Virus record (IMG/VR): IMGVR_UViG_3300013126_000104
Coordinates: 1-36,353 of that record
Direction: 5' to 3' (one strand)
Source: a virus
DNA length: 36,353 nt
Shown here: in pieces, positions 1 through 9,951 of the stretch
Numbering within the stretch: position 1 is the first letter of the stretch
Layout of the letters: the number at the start of each line of letters is the position of its first letter
The notes under the pieces: generated by a model
Database searches by the model: none
Seen by the model: the letters and a program-made list of their open reading frames with translations, nothing else
What the model was told of the DNA's origin: nothing
Position numbers and translations under genes: made by a program

Positions 1-791
1 GGTCCATAAACCATCTCCGAACCAAAAACCCTATCAAGGTCAACAGAATACTTATCGTGAATAACAGGAACCAAAGACTGAATCAAATCATTCTTAGTTC
101 TCTGAGCAGTCCAAGCACCAATATGCTGCTTATACAACATCTCAGGAATATGAAACATTTTAGTACCCAAAGCAGTACGCAAAATTAAATCATAATCATC
201 AGCAACAGACAAATCAACATCATGCCCACCAATAGCAAAATACACCTTAGATTTCCAAACACGAACATGATTAGGGACAGAAACAATATGCGATAAAGTT
301 TTACGATTTATCTCAGCACTAGACATAGCCCACACATTATTTACTTCATCCCAATAATCAGAACCATAACCAAAAGCCCAACCATCAGGATAACGACCAC
401 TAGCACCACTAATAAGTATCTCAGACCAGTCCGAATACACAAAACCCACCGTATTGTCCACGCTAAAAGCCTGATTAACTTTCTCTAAACAAGTAGGCAT
501 CAACTCATCATCATGGTCTAATTCGAGCAAATAATCACCCAACGCTAAACCAAACGCCATGCGTTTGGCGTAGCCAATATTTCCACCACTAGGAGTATTG
601 GGTCTAAAGTAGCGAATAACATATCGTTCATCTGCACAAAAGCCATAAACTTGATTATAAACATAATCTGTTGTTGAGTCATCATAGATGACCCATTCCC
701 AATCAGTAAATGTTTGAGCCTTTAAAGATGCCCATGTTCTGGCAAGGACAGGTGCGGGCGTGTTGTATGTCGTAGTGATTATAGAAATCAT
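1..791 (-). CDS. Family 2-like glycosyltransferase, cut by the window edge
   Basis: The frame is open from an ATG at 791-789 down to position 1 with no stop. The start reads MISIITTTYN, the usual first strand of a GT-A fold. Acidic pairs follow at D37-D38 (VIYDDS) and in a DxD-like ELDHDDEL around residues 90-96, the expected nucleotide-sugar and metal site. The enzyme probably transfers a sugar to a host surface or virion glycan. If the window is joined end to end the frame adds two residues and stops at 36349-36347, giving about 265 residues. It directly follows the tail fibre genes, so a role in virion or host-surface glycosylation is likely. The family is clear; the substrate cannot be read. 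Confidence 0.8.
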   Translation of the reverse strand, partial: MISIITTTYNTPAPVLARTWASLKAQTFTDWEWVIYDDSTTDYVYNQVYGFCADERYVIRYFRPNTPSGGNIGYAKRMAFGLALGDYLLELDHDDELMPTCLEKVNQAFSVDNTVGFVYSDWSEILISGASGRYPDGWAFGYGSDYWDEVNNVWAMSSAEINRKTLSHIVSVPNHVRVWKSKVYFAIGGHDVDLSVADDYDLILRTALGTKMFHIPEMLYKQHIGAWTAQRTKNDLIQSLVPVIHDKYSVDLDRVFGSEMVYG

Positions 792-3656: not shown

Positions 3657-3992
3657 TTATCGGGTAACGTCAGCAAGAACAGTAACTTTACCAGCCAAAA
3701 TTGTGGTAACAACACCAGCGTTGTTTTCCTCAAAATCCCAAAAAGCAGGTCCATCAGTTAAAGCAGCACTAGAAGTAGCAGAAAGAACACAAGTCACAAC
3801 ACCCGTGGTGTTGTTCTGGGTTGTTGTAAAAGAAGCAGCAATAGTAGACGAGTTCTTCTCGTAACGAATTTGCGCACGATAAGTACGCCCTGTAATATTT
3901 ACAGGCATAGAGCCATCGTTTGTGATAGTAATATTCAAAGTTAGAGTATCACCTCGCACAAATTTTAGATTATAATTTGCTGGAACTGCCAT
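3657..3992 (-). CDS. Ig-like or BppU-N-like tail protein
   Basis: A 111-residue all-beta protein. It begins with a hydrophobic strand and FVRGDTLTLNITI, then has ITGRTYRAQIRYE in the middle and a terminal strand VTVLADVTR. The RGDT followed by alternating hydrophobic residues, and the later aQIR element, resemble N-terminal domains of baseplate or fibre proteins such as BppU. It lies just upstream of the collagen-like fibre in the same late operon, so it may anchor or adapt the fibre. There is no enzyme motif. The family assignment is tentative; a structural role is likely. Confidence 0.55.
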   Translation of the reverse strand: MAVPANYNLKFVRGDTLTLNITITNDGSMPVNITGRTYRAQIRYEKNSSTIAASFTTTQNNTTGVVTCVLSATSSAALTDGPAFWDFEENNAGVVTTILAGKVTVLADVTR

Positions 3993-5230: not shown

Positions 5231-5633
5231 CCCATACAACAAACCTGCTTTACGGGAAAGATTAAAGAACCAGATAATGTCTGGTTCCAAAGGTGGACGC
5301 AGCGGGCAGTGGTCTGCCCGCAAAGCCCAACTACTAGCACAAGCCTATGAGAAGGCTGGTGGAGGATACAAATCAGGTCCCACCAAATCGCAACAAAATC
5401 TGAAGAAGTGGACTGGAGAGAAATGGCGTACCAAATCAGGTAAACCATCCACCCAAGGACCCAAAGCAACAGGTGAACGTTATCTGCCTGAAAAAGCCAT
5501 CAAATCATTATCGGCATCGGAATACCGTGCCACCAGTGAAAAGAAAAGGGCGGGGACAAAACAAGGTAAACAGTTCGTACCAAACACTTCTAAAGCACGG
5601 GCAGCAGGACGCAAAGCACGAGGAGCAAAATAA
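5208..5633 (+). CDS. Basic DUF5872-like protein
   Basis: A 141-residue, strongly basic protein. The central KKWTGEKWRTKSGKPS segment followed by GERYLPEKAIKSLSASEY matches my memory of the DUF5872 domain, which occurs in phages and large eukaryotic viruses. The Lys/Arg/Gly/Ser-rich ends look disordered. It lies between two other basic proteins and overlaps both neighbours by a few bases. A DNA-binding or packaging-related role fits the charge, but no activity is known. Confidence 0.65.
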   Translation: MAAKKASSPYNKPALRERLKNQIMSGSKGGRSGQWSARKAQLLAQAYEKAGGGYKSGPTKSQQNLKKWTGEKWRTKSGKPSTQGPKATGERYLPEKAIKSLSASEYRATSEKKRAGTKQGKQFVPNTSKARAAGRKARGAK

Positions 5634-5920
5634 TGGTAGCAAAAAAAGACCCACGACTAGCACGGGCAGGTGTCACAGGATACAACAAACCCAAAGCCAC
5701 ACCCAGCCACCCAACCAAATCCCACATTGTCGTCGCCAAATCAGGAGGACAAATCAAAACCATCCGATTCGGACAACAAGGCGTAAAAGGGTCACCCAAA
5801 AAAGCAGGAGAATCAAAAGCCTACGCCAGTAGGCGTAAACGCTTCCAAACACGCCACGCTAAAAACATTGCCAAAGGACCAATGAGTGCAGCCTACTGGG
5901 CAAACAAAGTAAAATGGTAA
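5633..5920 (+). CDS. Basic DUF6321-like protein
   Basis: A 95-residue protein with DPRLARAGVTGYNKPKATP near the start, KTIRFGQQGVKGSPKKAGE in the middle and the C-terminus MSAAYWANKVKW. This pattern matches my memory of DUF6321, which often travels with DUF5872 proteins. The charge is strongly positive. The start codon overlaps the preceding stop (taATGg). It is the last gene before a 1.1 kb gene-free region, so it probably ends an operon. Function unknown; nucleic-acid contact is likely from composition. Confidence 0.7.
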   Translation: MVAKKDPRLARAGVTGYNKPKATPSHPTKSHIVVAKSGGQIKTIRFGQQGVKGSPKKAGESKAYASRRKRFQTRHAKNIAKGPMSAAYWANKVKW

Positions 5921-6306
5921 CCCGCAAGGACCCATAAACAATTATAGGTGGCAGGGACAAACCCGTTCACAACCACACAAAGGTATCCCCAAACCATAAT
6001 CATAGCCTCTCTCTCCCTGAGCAGAAAGAATCATACACAGACATGCATGCACGCCCCCCCATGCCCCCCTGCGGTGTTTGTGCTGGTCGCACGAGGCATG
6101 CATAATCATTCACTGGCATGCATAATCATGCAAAAATTGACATAATCGGTGGAATCTGCTACGAGGCGCACACATGCACGGGTGCGACGGCGAACCCGAA
6201 CAGTCGGTGTCTGTTAAGTATGGATTATGGGTCGGTTTGCCAACGGTGCGTGCGGGGTACTGTGTGTGCATTATGCGTGTGTGGTACCGCACTGTGTGTG
6301 CAGGAA
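5921..6306. other. Gene-free stretch upstream of the structured RNA region
   Basis: No open frame here has a ribosome site or recognisable protein. The region contains C-rich runs near 6053-6067, one copy each of GCAGGGACA (5951) and CATAATC (5995), the three phased CATAATC words listed separately, and TG/GT-rich sequence from 6249. A hairpin at 6250-6292 pairs GTGCGG(GG)TAC with GTACCGCAC around a TGTGTG-rich loop. It could hold an origin or control region. Nothing here proves either. Confidence 0.4.
6095..6147 (+). repeat. Three CATAATC words at exact 20-bp phasing
   Basis: CATAATC starts at 6101, 6121 and 6141. The first two lie in an identical 15-base unit (GGCATGCATAATCAT at 6095 and 6115) and the third follows TTGA. 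Twenty bases is close to two helical turns, so a protein would meet all copies on one face. The arrangement resembles short iterons or operator arrays. The third copy forms a TTGACATAAT that could include a -35 TTGACA (6137-6142), but no good -10 follows. Confidence 0.5.
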
Positions 6307-6341
6307 AATTTCCCGTAGGGAAATTATTCGGATTTTTTTTT
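6307..6341 (+). terminator. Rho-independent terminator-like hairpin
   Basis: AATTTCCC-gta-GGGAAATT forms eight perfect pairs at 6307-6325. A run of nine T follows at 6333-6341 after seven bases. It would end transcription coming from the 4816-5920 operon before the structured RNA region. The gap between stem and T run is longer than ideal, so efficiency is uncertain. Confidence 0.5.
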
Positions 6342-6408
6342 CTCGTTCTGTGTGTGGGACTTCGTCCTGCGTGTGGAACTGTGTGTCAGTTGGATTTCAC
6401 CGATTGAC

Positions 6409-6437
6409 TTGCAATTGTTTTTGGGATGTGTTTCAAT
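6409..6437 (+). promoter_or_regulatory. Weak candidate promoter for the structured RNA
   Basis: TTGCAA (6409-6414) is separated by 17 bases from TTCAAT (6432-6437), each matching four of six consensus positions. Its position, after the terminator at 6341 and before the first strong helix at 6488, is what a separate RNA gene would need. The overlapping TTGACT at 6404 has no -10 partner at normal spacing. It is supported mainly by location. Confidence 0.3.
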
Positions 6438-6487
6438 GTTGGTCATCGGTTGCCGTTGGTGATTCACAGTCGCTAGCCAATGCCGAA

Positions 6488-6934
6488 CCTAGCCGTGGCT
6501 GGCGGTAACGCTTGCCACCTCATAGTTGCTAGGGCTCATCCATCCCGTGGCTCTCATGGTGAGGACGTTGATGGAGAGTAGGTAGTAGCGATGGTGCCAT
6601 TGTGTTCTCGGAGGCTACCTTGCGAGTCTTGGGCTTGTGAATCCCGAATGAGTGGGGCAATTCACGCCTAGACTGTCCCTGCCTAGTCACTTCGGTGCTG
6701 GGTACACGTTGAATCCCGTATGATTCAGACTCGCATTGCAAGAAAAAGGCTATGAAATAGCCACGAACGGCGGATTCGTGGTGATTATAGGTGATACCTA
6801 CGGTATCCGACAGGCTCCGTGTTCCTGATTCTTGAATAGGTTGTGAGTCACGACTAACATGCTGTTAGCATGTCGGTACCCATCCCGTGATGATGGGGGG
6901 AACCCACTGTGACACGTGGTTAAACGCTAGTCGG
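6488..6934 (+). ncRNA. Large structured noncoding RNA, GOLLD/ROOL-like or new class
   Basis: The plus strand folds into helices with almost no linkers. (a) 6488-6533: CCTAGC/GCTAGG closes an inner GTGGC/GCCAC stem and a GCG-GTAA-CGC GNRA hairpin. (b) 6535-6578: CTC-a-TCCATC pairs with GATGGA-GAG. (c) 6580-6620: AGGTAG/CTACCT. (d) 6621-6735: TGCGAGTCT/AGACTCGCA closes a multibranch with GTGAAT/ATTCAC, CAC-TTCG-GTG and GAATC/GATTC arms. (e) 6748-6762, 6763-6779, 6793-6807 (TAC loop), 6840-6854, 6857-6873 (7 bp) and 6875-6904. The GNRA and UUCG loops are canonical only on the plus strand, which sets the orientation. Known large phage RNAs of this type (GOLLD, ROOL) lie beside tRNAs; a tRNA-like element follows immediately. 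Class and exact ends are inferred. Confidence 0.65.
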
Positions 6935-6988
6935 GGACAATCCGCAAGGTGCGGTGTTGGTAGGCAGGTTCGATTCCTGTATTGTCCG
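6935..6988 (+). ncRNA. 54-nt minimal tRNA-like element 1
   Basis: The acceptor stem GGACAAT/ATTGTCC (6935-6941 with 6981-6987) has seven perfect pairs and G6988 as discriminator. A T arm GCAGG-TTCGATT-CCTGT (6964-6980) carries the canonical TTCGATT loop. Between them are only 22 bases: a CCGC-AAGGT-GCGG hairpin and TGTTGGTAG, which recalls a D loop. No anticodon arm is present and CCA is not encoded. It cannot decode. It may be a processing signal for RNase P/Z at the end of the large RNA, or a decoy. No upstream sequence offers a full-length tRNA partner. Confidence 0.65.
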
Positions 6989-6990
6989 CT

Positions 6991-7038
6991 ACTCCCTACG
7001 GGAGTTGTTCCATAATCCTACTTACTAGGAGGTAAGTA
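6991..7038 (+). promoter_or_regulatory. Leader hairpins with sequestered ribosome site for the 7041 gene
   Basis: ACTCCC-tac-GGGAGT (6991-7005) forms six pairs. Then TACTTAC-TAGGAG-GTAAGTA (7019-7038) puts the Shine-Dalgarno core in a six-base loop on a seven-pair stem, just before the ATG at 7041. CATAATC lies between them (7011). The second hairpin could display or restrict the ribosome site and is the best example of a pattern repeated at several genes. Confidence 0.6.
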
Positions 7039-7040
7039 TC

Positions 7041-7307
7041 ATGCAAGTAGCCGATGTAAAAGACGCTGTGTCATTCCTTAAGGAATGGGAAGACACTGGC
7101 GGTGACATAATCGAAGTGAACACGAATCCCAACGAACCTTGGTTCGAGGATGACGGTTCAGTCACGAAGATGACGTACACCGAGTACCACCTTTCAGGTG
7201 GTAGTGGCTATGCTGGCTGTTTGTCGGTGTGGCAGTTCAACGATTCTTCGAAGAAGATTCGTGAGTCATTCTTCACGGAATACACCGCCGACGATTACGA
7301 TTTTTAA
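7041..7307 (+). CDS. Small acidic protein between the two tRNA-like elements
   Basis: An 88-residue acidic protein (MQVADVKDAVSFLKEW) with a Gly-Ser-Gly-Tyr stretch in the middle and many Asp/Glu. I do not recognise the family and see no signal, membrane segment or metal site. The start is fixed by a perfect AGGAGG in the hairpin loop described above. The stop codon TAA lies inside an 11-pair hairpin. The gene is flanked by two tRNA-like elements, so its mRNA may be cut out of a longer transcript. Function unknown. Confidence 0.6.
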   Translation: MQVADVKDAVSFLKEWEDTGGDIIEVNTNPNEPWFEDDGSVTKMTYTEYHLSGGSGYAGCLSVWQFNDSSKKIRESFFTEYTADDYDF

Positions 7308-7316
7308 TCGTAATCG
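7292..7316 (+). other. Hairpin spanning the stop codon of the 7041 gene
   Basis: CGATTACGATT-ttt-AATCGTAATCG has eleven perfect pairs around a three-base loop, and the TAA stop (7305-7307) lies in the loop and 3' arm. No U run follows, so it is not a standard terminator. It could protect the mRNA 3' end after processing at the next tRNA-like element. Confidence 0.6.
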
Positions 7317-7318
7317 GT

Positions 7319-7372
7319 TGGGCATAAATGGCACAACGTAGTTGTGGCTAGGTTCAATTCCTAGCATGTCCA
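7319..7372 (+). ncRNA. 54-nt minimal tRNA-like element 2
   Basis: The acceptor stem TGGGCAT/ATGTCCA (7319-7325 with 7366-7372) has seven pairs including one G-U. The T arm CTAGG-TTCAATT-CCTAG (7348-7364) has five perfect pairs and a canonical-type loop. In between lies a single hairpin CACAAC-gta-GTTGTG (7332-7346) with six pairs. There is no anticodon arm and no encoded CCA. Its length equals that of element 1, and the same kind of hairpin (TCC-TACGG-GGA) follows it, so the two look like diverged copies of one module. Confidence 0.65.
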
Positions 7373-7375
7373 CTA

Positions 7376-7428
7376 TGTCCTACGGGGACAGAAACATAAT
7401 CCATTGGGGATTATGTTGGCATTACCAA
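7376..7428 (+). promoter_or_regulatory. Three leader hairpins before the MoxR-like gene
   Basis: TGTCC-tacgg-GGACA (7376-7390), CATAATCC-attgg-GGATTATG (7395-7415, eight pairs) and TTGG-catta-CCAA (7416-7428) follow one another without gaps of more than four bases. The second hairpin is built from the genome-wide word CATAATC and its complement. An ACGGAGG ribosome site follows at 7429-7435 ahead of the ATG at 7442. Confidence 0.55.
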
Positions 7429-7441
7429 CGGAGGTTCCATA

Positions 7442-8785
7442 ATGCCTGCAAGAAAAGCACCGACTATCCTAGCGGTTAGTCCTGACGGTTACGTCAATTT
7501 CCAAACGCCGACTGGTAAACAGTCAACGTTTCTATTCCACCATTGTGACAAAGTCACACGAATTGCTGCCACCAAGTTCCTTGGTGGTCGGTTCGTTGGT
7601 CGTCCACCAATGCACTTCAGTGACATTGAACTAGCCCAAGTGTTCCACATGGCTCACCTGAGTAGTTTCGGTCACAATTCGGATTACAGTCCGATGAAGT
7701 TCTACCCTGTGGGTAGTTCTGTCCCCGCCACTGTTCAACCTACGGTTGAACCTGTCTCTCAGGAGCCAATTATGTCCACCAAGTCCACCAAGTCGAACGG
7801 TTCATCTTTGGATGAATTGCTTGTCGGCACTATCACGAATGTCGTTAACGACATTCTTCAGGATTATCAACCGACAACAGTTTCCACTGTTGACCCTGTC
7901 CGTATGCAGGAGTTGGAACTTTGTGTCAAAGTTTTAACTGACGCTATGGATGAGCAGAATGAGACAATTGAGAAATTGTCGCAACGTTTGTTGAAGCAGA
8001 CACCAATTCAGTTGGTGGTCAACGGTGTCCCGTCGAAGCCAACACAGGGTGTTGTTCATAAACAGTACGGCAAGATTGCTAGCGCAATCAGTCTTGGACT
8101 GAATGTGTTCCTTGTCGGTTCGGCAGGGACAGGTAAGTCAACGATTCCCATGCAGATTGCGGAGCAATTGGGCTTGGAGTTTCGTGGTAACAGTTGTGGA
8201 ACAACTGACGCTAAGTTTGATTATGTCGGCTACCGTGATGGTCATGGCATACTACATTCAACGGCTTTTCGTGAGTCGTTCGAGAATGGTGGCTTGTATC
8301 TGTTGGATGAGATGGACAACGCCTCTGCCGATGTGTTGGTCACTTTGAACAGTGCGCTTGCCAATGGTGTCATGGCGTTCCCTGATGGGATGGTGAAACG
8401 TCACGCCGACTTCCGACTTGTTGCCACTGGCAACACTTGGGGCAACGGTGCCACGGCACAGTATGTGGGGCGTTCTGCCATTGACGGTGCAACCTTGGAT
8501 AGGTTCGTTCGAATCATGGTCGATGTTGACGAGAACGTCGAAGATGCAATGGTTGACGGTGTTCTGCCTTCAACAGAGTTGGCATTATGGAAGAACGTTG
8601 TCCGAACGGCTCGCAAGAATTGCGAAGCCAACGGTTTGCGTGTCATGGTGACTCCTCGTTCCATGAAGCATGGTGCTATGTTGATTGCTGGTGGTTTCAC
8701 CATGCAAGAAGCGGTGGACGCTACGTTCGGTGCTGGTTTGGACAAAGTCCAGTATGACAAGGTGTTGGCTGGTGTTACCCTCTAG
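7442..8785 (+). CDS. MoxR/CobS-like AAA+ ATPase
   Basis: A 447-residue protein. Residues about 1-200 are a poorly conserved N-terminal part with a likely disordered Pro/Ser/Thr segment near 95-122. The AAA+ core follows: Walker A GSAGTGKS (226-233), Walker B LYLLDEMD (286-293), sensor 1 ATGNTW (328-333) and an arginine-finger-like DRF near 353-355. Such ATPases act as hexameric chaperones that remodel or insert cofactors into partner proteins, often with a von Willebrand or CobT-type partner. The next gene is the usual phage partner. The stop codon lies in a hairpin loop. The target is unknown. Confidence 0.85.
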   Translation: MPARKAPTILAVSPDGYVNFQTPTGKQSTFLFHHCDKVTRIAATKFLGGRFVGRPPMHFSDIELAQVFHMAHLSSFGHNSDYSPMKFYPVGSSVPATVQPTVEPVSQEPIMSTKSTKSNGSSLDELLVGTITNVVNDILQDYQPTTVSTVDPVRMQELELCVKVLTDAMDEQNETIEKLSQRLLKQTPIQLVVNGVPSKPTQGVVHKQYGKIASAISLGLNVFLVGSAGTGKSTIPMQIAEQLGLEFRGNSCGTTDAKFDYVGYRDGHGILHSTAFRESFENGGLYLLDEMDNASADVLVTLNSALANGVMAFPDGMVKRHADFRLVATGNTWGNGATAQYVGRSAIDGATLDRFVRIMVDVDENVEDAMVDGVLPSTELALWKNVVRTARKNCEANGLRVMVTPRSMKHGAMLIAGGFTMQEAVDATFGAGLDKVQYDKVLAGVTL

Positions 8786-8832: not shown

Positions 8833-9651
8833 ATGTCACAGGTTGTTGTTGACAAGTTCGACTCATTCGGTGAGTTGCTAGCGTATGCTAGAAATAATCC
8901 CCATACTAATGGGGAATCAAACGAGGCTGGTTCTCGTGATTGGTATGGTCAAACTAATAGTTTGAGTGAAGCGGTTCAACTTGCGTCCGATGGCTGGCAC
9001 GATGAACGTGCCACGTTGGACAAGATGTTGGCTACGTTGTCGGAGCAGATTGGTGAACGATTCTCCTTAGAGAATCGTGTCCAGTTGTCTGTTGTTGGTA
9101 GCGGTGTTCACATGGGGCGTTTCCTTGGTGGTCGTCCCGACCACATGATTGGGTTCCGCCGTGTCGCCACTGCTAGGCATGGTCGTATCGTGAAAGTGGT
9201 GCTGGATTATGGTGCTAACCATAAGTACGGTGCTGATTTCATGTTGCGCCGTGGTGTTACTGTCACCGCACTGGTGGAGGTTCTGAACGTTCTCGGTTTG
9301 TCCGTGGAATTATGGACTGAAACTAGTGTGAAGTTCGGTGAAGACATTCACACAACGTTGACCAAGATTCACGACCCTAGGGAGCCAATGGACATTGACT
9401 CGTTGATGTACGCTATAGCGGAGCCGTCGATGTTGCGCCGACTCACTTTCAGTGTTCGTGAAATGTCAAAGTTCGGCTTTCAGAAATGCAAGCGTGCAGG
9501 GTATGGTGGTTCTATTCCGATTACCCAAGGTGAAACCTTGGAGGCTGACATAATCATTAACCGCATGGAACATGGCGGGGACAGGAACATCGTGGATAGC
9601 CCTGTTGATTGGGTTATGCAAACTATCCGTGGCTTGGGGGTGTTGGACTGA
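8833..9651 (+). CDS. Partner protein of the MoxR-like ATPase (DUF7192-like)
   Basis: A 272-residue protein. The N-terminal segment RDWYGQTNSLSEAVQLASDGWHDE matches my memory of the DUF7192 family, which sits beside MoxR/CobS-like ATPases in many actinobacterial phages. The central part is a mixed alpha/beta region with a HKYGADFMLRRG element. No catalytic metal site is evident, though a degenerate CobT or von Willebrand-type fold is possible. It is probably the substrate-recognition or remodelled partner of the ATPase just upstream. The biological process served is unknown. Confidence 0.6.
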   Translation: MSQVVVDKFDSFGELLAYARNNPHTNGESNEAGSRDWYGQTNSLSEAVQLASDGWHDERATLDKMLATLSEQIGERFSLENRVQLSVVGSGVHMGRFLGGRPDHMIGFRRVATARHGRIVKVVLDYGANHKYGADFMLRRGVTVTALVEVLNVLGLSVELWTETSVKFGEDIHTTLTKIHDPREPMDIDSLMYAIAEPSMLRRLTFSVREMSKFGFQKCKRAGYGGSIPITQGETLEADIIINRMEHGGDRNIVDSPVDWVMQTIRGLGVLD

Positions 9652-9664
9652 TACAATGGGGGTG

Positions 9665-9745
9665 CCGACATAGCACCTCCACTGTGTCGGTTTACCTCCT
9701 AGGTAGGCGGTAGGCGTTGGTCATTACACTTCGCCTACCGCTTTT
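9665..9745 (+). terminator. Terminator region with an anti-Shine-Dalgarno segment
   Basis: A first hairpin CCGACATAG/CTGTGTCGG (9665-9690, one G-U) is followed by ACCTCCTAGG (9694-9703). A second hairpin GCGGTAGGCG/CGCCTACCGC (9707-9741, ten perfect pairs, 15-base loop) then runs into TTTT (9742-9745), a Rho-independent terminator. ACCTCCTAG is exactly complementary to CTAGGAGGT at the ribosome sites of the 7041 and 8833 genes. The region may yield a short 3'-derived RNA. Confidence 0.6.
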
Positions 9746-9764
9746 CCTATGTTAGGGGTTGATT

Positions 9765-9890
9765 ATGGTTCTGTTTGGTTTACTGTTGTTGCAGATGTTT
9801 GTTGCAGGATTATGGCTGGTGTGTCGTAATCCCCACGAAGAACGTGTGCGTCCTAGACGGCACACGAGGAAACACCACAAAATTATTTGA
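9765..9890 (+). CDS. 41-residue single-pass membrane protein
   Basis: ATG at 9765 and TGA at 9888, with an AGGGG ribosome site seven bases upstream. The protein begins MVLFGLLLLQMFVAGLWLVC, one clear membrane helix, followed by RNPHEER and a very basic tail rich in Arg, Lys and His. The topology is probably N-out with the basic tail in the cytoplasm. It lies right after a terminator and before a promoter-like element, so it may have its own control. Possible roles include superinfection exclusion or a takeover peptide; none is shown. Confidence 0.55.
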   Translation: MVLFGLLLLQMFVAGLWLVCRNPHEERVRPRRHTRKHHKII

Positions 9891-9914
9891 CAGTGACACA
9901 TCGTTGTGTTACTG
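9886..9914 (+). promoter_or_regulatory. Candidate promoter and hairpin before the 9971 gene
   Basis: A perfect TTGACA (9886-9891) is followed after 17 bases by TACTGT (9909-9914), a poor -10. The spacer and -10 form a ten-pair hairpin, CAGTGACACA/TGTGTTACTG, with one G-U pair and loop TCGT. Its 3' part (GTGTTA-ACT) recalls the better promoter at 13138-13165. It may be a promoter, an RNA hairpin after the preceding stop, or both. Confidence 0.4.
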
Positions 9915-9951
9915 TTTCGTTCTGCCAAGCACATAAGGTGTTTGGTGTTAT

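Follow-up and report, generated by a model that had tools for sequence, protein, structure and literature searches.

A large ornate phage RNA ending in a tRNA-like domain, with hammerheads in the same place in relatives

Introduction

What does a phage encode in the gene-free stretch ahead of its early operon? We analysed a virus record of 36,353 bases (the window), which carries genes for a portal, a major head protein, a terminase and a collagen-like tail fibre on the minus strand, and a rightward operon for an AAA-ATPase (phrog_249), an exonuclease, a DnaB-like helicase and a primase. The virus is a tailed phage. Between a phrog_7595 gene (5633-5920) and an 88-aa ORF (7041-7307), an original prediction had placed a large ornate plus-strand RNA that ends in a tRNA-like element and could be either a divergent GOLLD or ROOL or a new class. 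To our knowledge, RNAs that are both large and ornate form a very small group, to which the phage RNAs GOLLD and ROOL belong. Here, we ask whether the RNA exists, to which class it belongs, and how its 3′ end might be made.

A structured RNA at the head of the early operon

The locus comprises the following features, of which the tRNA-like domains are described further below. Relatives carry L numbers; L002 and the window are the only two members of their clade (clade B), with 56% identity in the RNA body.

6307-6341, plus strand: terminator-like hairpin AATTTCCC-GTA-GGGAAATT (6307-6325), read by eye, and a T run (6333-6341) at 7-nt distance
6409-6437, plus strand: sigma-70-like promoter element TTGCAA-17-TTCAAT, which immediately precedes the RNA's conserved 5′ end
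6439-6934, plus strand: noncoding RNA body of ornate structure, about 495 nt long, supported by its fold, the helices of L002, about 40 family members and covariation in clades A and C
6488-6533, plus strand: GNRA-capped two-part hairpin with a GUAA loop
6539-6575, plus strand: bulged stem (6535-6578) with outer helix 6539-6544/6570-6575
6621-6735, plus strand: three-branch domain with UUCG, local fold -45.1 kcal/mol
6857-6897, plus strand: two hairpins, ACATGC/GCATGT and CCCATC/GATGGG
6991-7005, plus strand: small hairpin after the first tRNA-like domain
7041-7307, plus strand: 88-aa ORF that opens the early operon, without a PHROG match; its L002 counterpart shares 53% identity
7442-8785, plus strand: AAA-ATPase gene (phrog_249), which is also the next gene in relatives

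We find that the plus strand of 6470-6990 folds with a minimum free energy of -204.9 kcal/mol, against -182.4 +/- 6.3 in dinucleotide shuffles (z -3.58), and not one of 100 shuffles reached so low a value; the minus strand is weaker (-170.2, z -2.73). The local helices that had been predicted at 6488-6533, 6535-6578, 6580-6620 and 6621-6735 all form in local folding. Most are also seen in L002. The outer helix of the GNRA-capped hairpin (6488-6493/6528-6533) is kept there with a compensatory change. That of the bulged stem reads TCCATC/GATGGA in the window and CCTAGT/ACTAGG in L002 (four of six pairs doubly changed), around a conserved CTC-TCATGGT-GAG cap. The closing helix of the three-branch domain (6621-6628/6728-6735) is TGCGAGTC/GACTCGCA in the window versus ACAGACAC/GTGTCTGT in L002, with five of eight pairs doubly changed. 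Compensatory changes also occur in the two hairpins at 6857-6897, and two of six pairs are doubly changed in the small hairpin at 6991-7005. The stem at 6580-6620 folds in the window, but no counterpart was found in L002.

Across the hand-paired local helices, including the tRNA-like domains, the window and L002 share 73 pairs, of which 20 are compensatory, four one-sided and none broken; hand pairing carries a selection bias, so these counts are taken as support and not as a test. A free two-sequence alifold of the same pair has an energy that beats column shuffles (z -6.4), with compensatory changes not above those in shuffles (32 vs 28.6 +/- 3.8). Nor could a structure-weighted alignment establish the pair's long-range fold. 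Since neither approach settled the fold, we rely on local helices and on the larger clades. Two long-range helices of the minimum free energy structure (6616-6624/6943-6951 and 6728-6735/6842-6849) are strong in the window and have no L002 counterpart; we do not claim them.

No protein-like conservation was detected in 6400-7035, in line with the prediction that the region holds no plausible protein. Reading frames of more than 25 residues there match only the 3′ part of L002, apart from short chance hits. The L002 matches are alike on both strands and thus reflect DNA conservation. Helices kept by compensatory change, together with the lack of a conserved protein, characterize the region as an ornate structured noncoding RNA.

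The 5′ end of the RNA

The hairpin and T run at 6307-6341 would end transcription arriving from upstream. A similar pair is present in L002 and L097. The prediction that the RNA region begins after a terminator is thus borne out by eye, but a consensus scan for plus-strand terminators did not flag this hairpin. Further downstream, relatives of all clades carry a TTG[AC]NN-16..18-TANNNT-like element at the same distance as the window's promoter-like element, wherever the shown sequence reaches far enough; a generic promoter scan did not list the element at 6409-6437. In most relatives, the 5′ end of the RNA reads GGCAUCG or similar. The RNA most likely starts near 6439-6446. The predicted extent of 6404-6988 is therefore corrected at its start, while the large RNA itself stands.

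Other signals lie at either side of the locus. Upstream of the RNA, a DNA block at 6025-6073 (GAATCATACACA ... CCCCCCATGCCCCCC) is 80-88% conserved across clades whose RNAs can hardly be aligned, and is possibly a replication origin or a genome-end signal. At the far end of the operon (9650-9950), the 272-aa gene is followed by a strong hairpin with a T run behind it (about 9705-9748). Past this hairpin, near 9888, comes a new promoter-like element with TTGACA. Both are also present in L002.

Relatives and covariation

The same locus occurs in about 40 distinct IMG/VR sequences from four clades, with RNAs of about 400-630 nt. Related contigs were reached via the ATPase gene, and further ones via a conserved 20-mer and other patterns. 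Profile searches assign 20 distinct sequences to clade A, two to clade B (the window and L002), 10 to clade C and seven to clade D, and place L053, L055 and L057 as divergent sequences close to clade A. The RNA bodies are so different that the clades hardly find each other by sequence. Most relatives nevertheless share one plan, in which a gene-free stretch lies between upstream structural genes and the ATPase operon. Within it, the elements are ordered as promoter-like element, 5′ end, body of 400-630 nt, 3′ element, small hairpin, ribosome-binding site and gene.

Covariation is strong in both clades tested. The consensus of clade C (eight sequences) has 115 pairs, 95.7% of them paired, and that of clade A (16 sequences) has 106 pairs, 96.6% paired. 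Double-change cells number 89 in clade C, where shuffles give 28.6 +/- 4.5 and slid controls 11 or fewer, and 218 in clade A, where shuffles give 73.4 +/- 6.8 and slid controls 39 or fewer; both structures were derived from the same alignments as tested, which favours them, yet the difference is still large. Of the five measures applied to clade A, the one for further pair types was not clearly above shuffles (51 of 500). The helices shared by the window and L002 agree with this picture. The outcomes named beforehand as speaking against the original prediction (a lack of covariation, helices no more stable than shuffled controls, protein-like conservation) did not occur. We therefore consider the existence and structure of an RNA of about 500 nt well supported.

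Not every relative of the operon carries the RNA. L164, L166, L171 and L188 have the operon and no large RNA, which makes the RNA an accessory module. In L166, L171, L178 and L188, which lack the large RNA, repeated GTGNGCGTCAAAGA-like units precede the ATPase gene instead; these are perhaps repeated promoters or protein-binding sites. A canonical tRNA-Asn (GTT) lies just upstream of the RNA locus in L003 (4759-4834) and L007 (2509-2584), and is also visible in L021.

Searches for known families

In Rfam 15, at the gathering score and among weak hits, the RNA matches no family in either the window or its relatives, and the GOLLD and ROOL covariance models give no hit in 5900-7460 at E up to 5. 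The Rfam hits in relatives are type II hammerheads, one tRNA-Asn in each of two relatives (L003 and L007) and chance hits. No match was returned when the RNAs of the window and of clades A and C were compared by BLASTN with 50,697 phage records (GenBank phages). An exact 20-mer from the 3′ part of the window RNA occurs in IMG/VR only in the L002 contig. A clade A 20-mer gave 11 hits in 84,980 genomes; none matches the RNA profiles and we put them down to chance. RNase P RNA and a group I intron were considered by eye and have no Rfam support.

Of the two classes offered by the original prediction, a new class within the large ornate phage RNAs is the better option, given that no GOLLD or ROOL relationship is detectable. 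Our literature search found no paper on this RNA, although large surveys of phage structured RNAs could contain it, and no description of its 3′-end device, a tRNA-like domain or a hammerhead.

tRNA-like domains at two joints of the operon

The predicted terminal tRNA-like element is real, and the window holds a second one that had been missed:

6935-6987, plus strand: tRNA-like domain 1 (53 nt), with a 7-bp acceptor GGACAAT/ATTGTCC, a D-like arm CCGC-AAGGT-GCGG and a T-arm GCAGG-TTCGATT-CCTGT
7320-7371, plus strand: tRNA-like domain 2, with an acceptor GGGCAT/ATGTCC, a hairpin CACAAC/GTTGTG and a T-arm GCTAGG-TTCAATT-CCTAGC, followed by ACTA

Domain 1 has neither an anticodon arm nor CCA, and its tail reads GCTA in place of NCCA. 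Compared with L002, it shows four compensatory pairs and none broken; the GG of its D-loop is missing in L002. Domain 2 sits between the 88-aa ORF and the ATPase gene, shows seven compensatory pairs and none broken against L002, and belongs to a type found in 17 IMG/VR contigs. A simple scan of the whole window returns exactly these two domains, both on the plus strand, in the gaps between RNA and ORF and between ORF and ATPase gene; the same scan gave one hit in 10 Markov-shuffled windows.

The 3′ element is fuller in clade A, where it comprises an acceptor, a D-arm (loop with GG), a long arm replacing the anticodon arm, and a T-arm. Clades B and C as well as L097 have a compact version. Behind the acceptor, nearly all domains carry the tail R-C-[U/G]-A, and CCA never occurs there; the domain thus looks unfit for aminoacylation. 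ARAGORN finds no canonical tRNA in the window, and neither ARAGORN nor Rfam gives a tmRNA hit. The plan of mascRNA (acceptor stem, a single extra hairpin and a T-arm with a 7-nt loop) is seen at 7320-7371, while domain 1 has its D-like arm as the hairpin. A mascRNA model scores the domain of L058 at 22.3 bits (E 2.3), a weak hit at chance level.

Hammerheads at the same joints

The relatives contain 18 distinct type II hammerheads, which all have intact catalytic cores and lie on the operon strand; the window has none. They were recognized by a CUGANGA / GAA / A-U core with a cleavable H17, closed stems I and III and an open stem II. The Rfam model RF02276 matches two of them in L066 and one in L127 at 23.8-29 bits. 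As these scores fall below the 37-bit gathering score, type II hammerheads like these are likely under-annotated.

Hammerheads and tRNA-like domains exchange at two joints. At the 3′ end of the RNA, clades A, B and C, L097, L136 and L137 have a tRNA-like domain, whereas L005 and L138 have a hammerhead. Ahead of the ATPase gene, a tRNA-like domain occupies the gap in the window, in L002 and in part of clade A; its counterpart in L003, L005, L007 and L136-L138 is a hammerhead. That two such unlike elements swap at the same joint suggests that they serve one purpose, and what hammerheads are known to do is cut.

Type II hammerheads with nearly identical cores lie between phage genes in L003, L004, L005, L007, L010, L021, L023, L025, L042, L043, L066 and L136-L138, and their pattern occurs in 78 IMG/VR stretches. 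Many of the phage contigs that carry them measure 36-39 kb, with several copies per genome.

Another RNA motif, a three-way junction absent from the window, lies directly before the ATPase gene in L009 (about 5920-5975), L023 (about 3928-3981), L028 (about 3915-3968) and 48 IMG/VR contigs, at the site used by a hammerhead or tRNA-like domain in other relatives. It consists of P1 (GG..CC), a joint UG, a covarying P2 of 8-9 bp, a joint AUUAGR, P3 (UGUYCG-UGAA-CGRACA) and a joint G. Among its 25 distinct sequences, P1 and P2 covary, and the R of AUUAGR varies in step with the Y-R pair within P3, much as a base triple would. Rfam searches of loci holding the motif gave no hit to it. This undescribed motif is possibly a new self-cleaving ribozyme or a ligand-binding leader.

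Proposed processing signals and alternative explanations

How, then, does the RNA relate to the genes behind it? Starting from the structure, conservation, architecture and element exchange observed at the locus, we favour, as a fairly probable reading, a noncoding RNA gene at 6439-6934 with its own promoter, whose tRNA-like domains are processing signals for host RNase P. The domains most likely mark cleavage sites, and the enzyme is probably host RNase P, by analogy with mascRNA for MALAT1. Transcription would start from the RNA's own promoter at the head of the rightward operon and read on into the 88-aa ORF and the ATPase gene. Host RNase P would recognize the acceptor stem stacked on the T-arm and cut 5′ of each acceptor, at about 6934/6935 and 7319/7320. 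The first cut would give the RNA a defined 3′ end and free it from the mRNA as a stable RNA; the second would divide the mRNA at the joint between its genes. The same job would fall, at the same places, to a hammerhead ribozyme in relatives. We infer that the released RNA acts in trans.

An acceptor stem and a T-arm form a minimal RNase P substrate, and hammerheads cut RNA. RNase P is proposed for this reason, and also because it processes phage RNAs, mRNAs and MALAT1/mascRNA. Its substrates include the tmRNA precursor, 4.5S RNA, the phage M3 and C4 RNAs and T4 gene 32 mRNA (PMC11143913), as well as MALAT1/mascRNA (PMC12016569). Against RNase P, the tails of the tRNA-like domains lack the second C of the RCC that the bacterial enzyme prefers. 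Against the processing proposal as a whole, the position between promoter and first gene equally fits a cis-acting leader.

Such a leader is the main rival. The RNA would then be the 5′ leader of the early operon, either an antiterminator of the put/EAR/LOOT type or a regulator of the ATPase operon, and the tRNA-like domains would merely stabilize or insulate the 5′ end of the mRNA. The RNA lies directly between promoter and first gene with no terminator between, and it is always found in the same operon. However, its size and ornateness exceed those of any phage antiterminator RNA known to us, the hammerhead in which it ends in L005 and L138 would separate it from the genes, and L164, L166, L171 and L188 keep the operon without it. 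On balance, we regard a cis-acting leader as unlikely, though a serious contender. Less probable still is a role of the domains not as cleavage sites but as decoys or mimics, bound by host proteins that interact with tRNA, for example to shield the RNA or to titrate a tRNA-targeting defence. A conserved acceptor and T-arm elbow without anticodon arm or CCA would suit such a role, which leaves the hammerheads at the same place unexplained.

Two further readings concern the class of the RNA. A tmRNA-like molecule, with a tRNA-like domain and a large insert, would be aminoacylated and act on ribosomes; the D-arm, the long arm replacing the anticodon arm and the T-arm of clade A recall this arrangement. 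We consider it very improbable, since the tail is NCUA or NCGA instead of CCA, the clades do not all share the G3-U70 alanine determinant, tmRNA searches with ARAGORN and Rfam were negative, and the acceptor strands in the window are 39 nt apart and do not enclose the RNA. A very divergent GOLLD or ROOL would likewise be phage-borne, hundreds of nucleotides long, ornate and near tRNA-like sequence. Neither model hits the window or its relatives even at E up to 3-5, and members here measure about 400-630 nt while many GOLLDs exceed 800 (PMC12286853), so that we give this reading scarcely any credence.

Our preferred reading remains a separate RNA gene with RNase P processing signals. We see about even chances that it exemplifies a broader new class: large ornate phage RNAs whose 3′ end and operon joints are made by interchangeable cutting elements, namely mini tRNA-like domains cut by RNase P, hammerheads and perhaps the three-way-junction RNA.

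Comparison with known systems

About 40 distinct sequences of a further ornate RNA class are enough for consensus structures and experiments, and they include natural swaps of the 3′ element, which make the processing hypothesis directly testable in vitro. If the hypothesis is true, tRNA mimicry and ribozymes would be equivalent phage tools for cutting transcripts. The locus would then be a phage counterpart of the MALAT1/mascRNA device, in which natural replacements show that cleavage is the selected function.

GOLLD and ROOL, likewise large and ornate, are encoded by phages and prophages near tRNAs and contain extensive covarying helices (PMC12286853). The window RNA resembles them as a large ornate phage RNA with extensive covarying helices. 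In contrast to both, it has no Rfam match, is shorter, ends in its own tRNA-like domain or, in relatives, a hammerhead, and heads an early operon. GOLLD is often longer than 800 nt and located by tRNA islands, whereas the window RNA measures about 495 nt in a window without a canonical tRNA.

Type II hammerheads are found in phages and bacteria, and arrays of them that cut polycistronic phage-type RNAs have been described (PMC3088659). The relatives studied here carry such ribozymes between genes too, with the difference that they alternate with tRNA-like domains at the same position. The M3 RNA, the P1/P7 C4 antisense RNA and T4 gene 32 mRNA are phage transcripts cut by host RNase P (PMC11143913); unlike the site proposed here, these substrates do not form the 3′ end of a large ornate RNA. 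For MALAT1/mascRNA and MEN-beta/menRNA, RNase P sets the 3′ end of a noncoding RNA at a mini tRNA-like structure (PMC12016569). The window RNA is similarly a noncoding RNA with a mini tRNA-like 3′ structure at which cleavage would occur. It differs from these systems in belonging to a phage and its bacterial host rather than to vertebrates, in sharing no sequence homology with them, and in having a second copy of the tRNA-like structure between protein genes.
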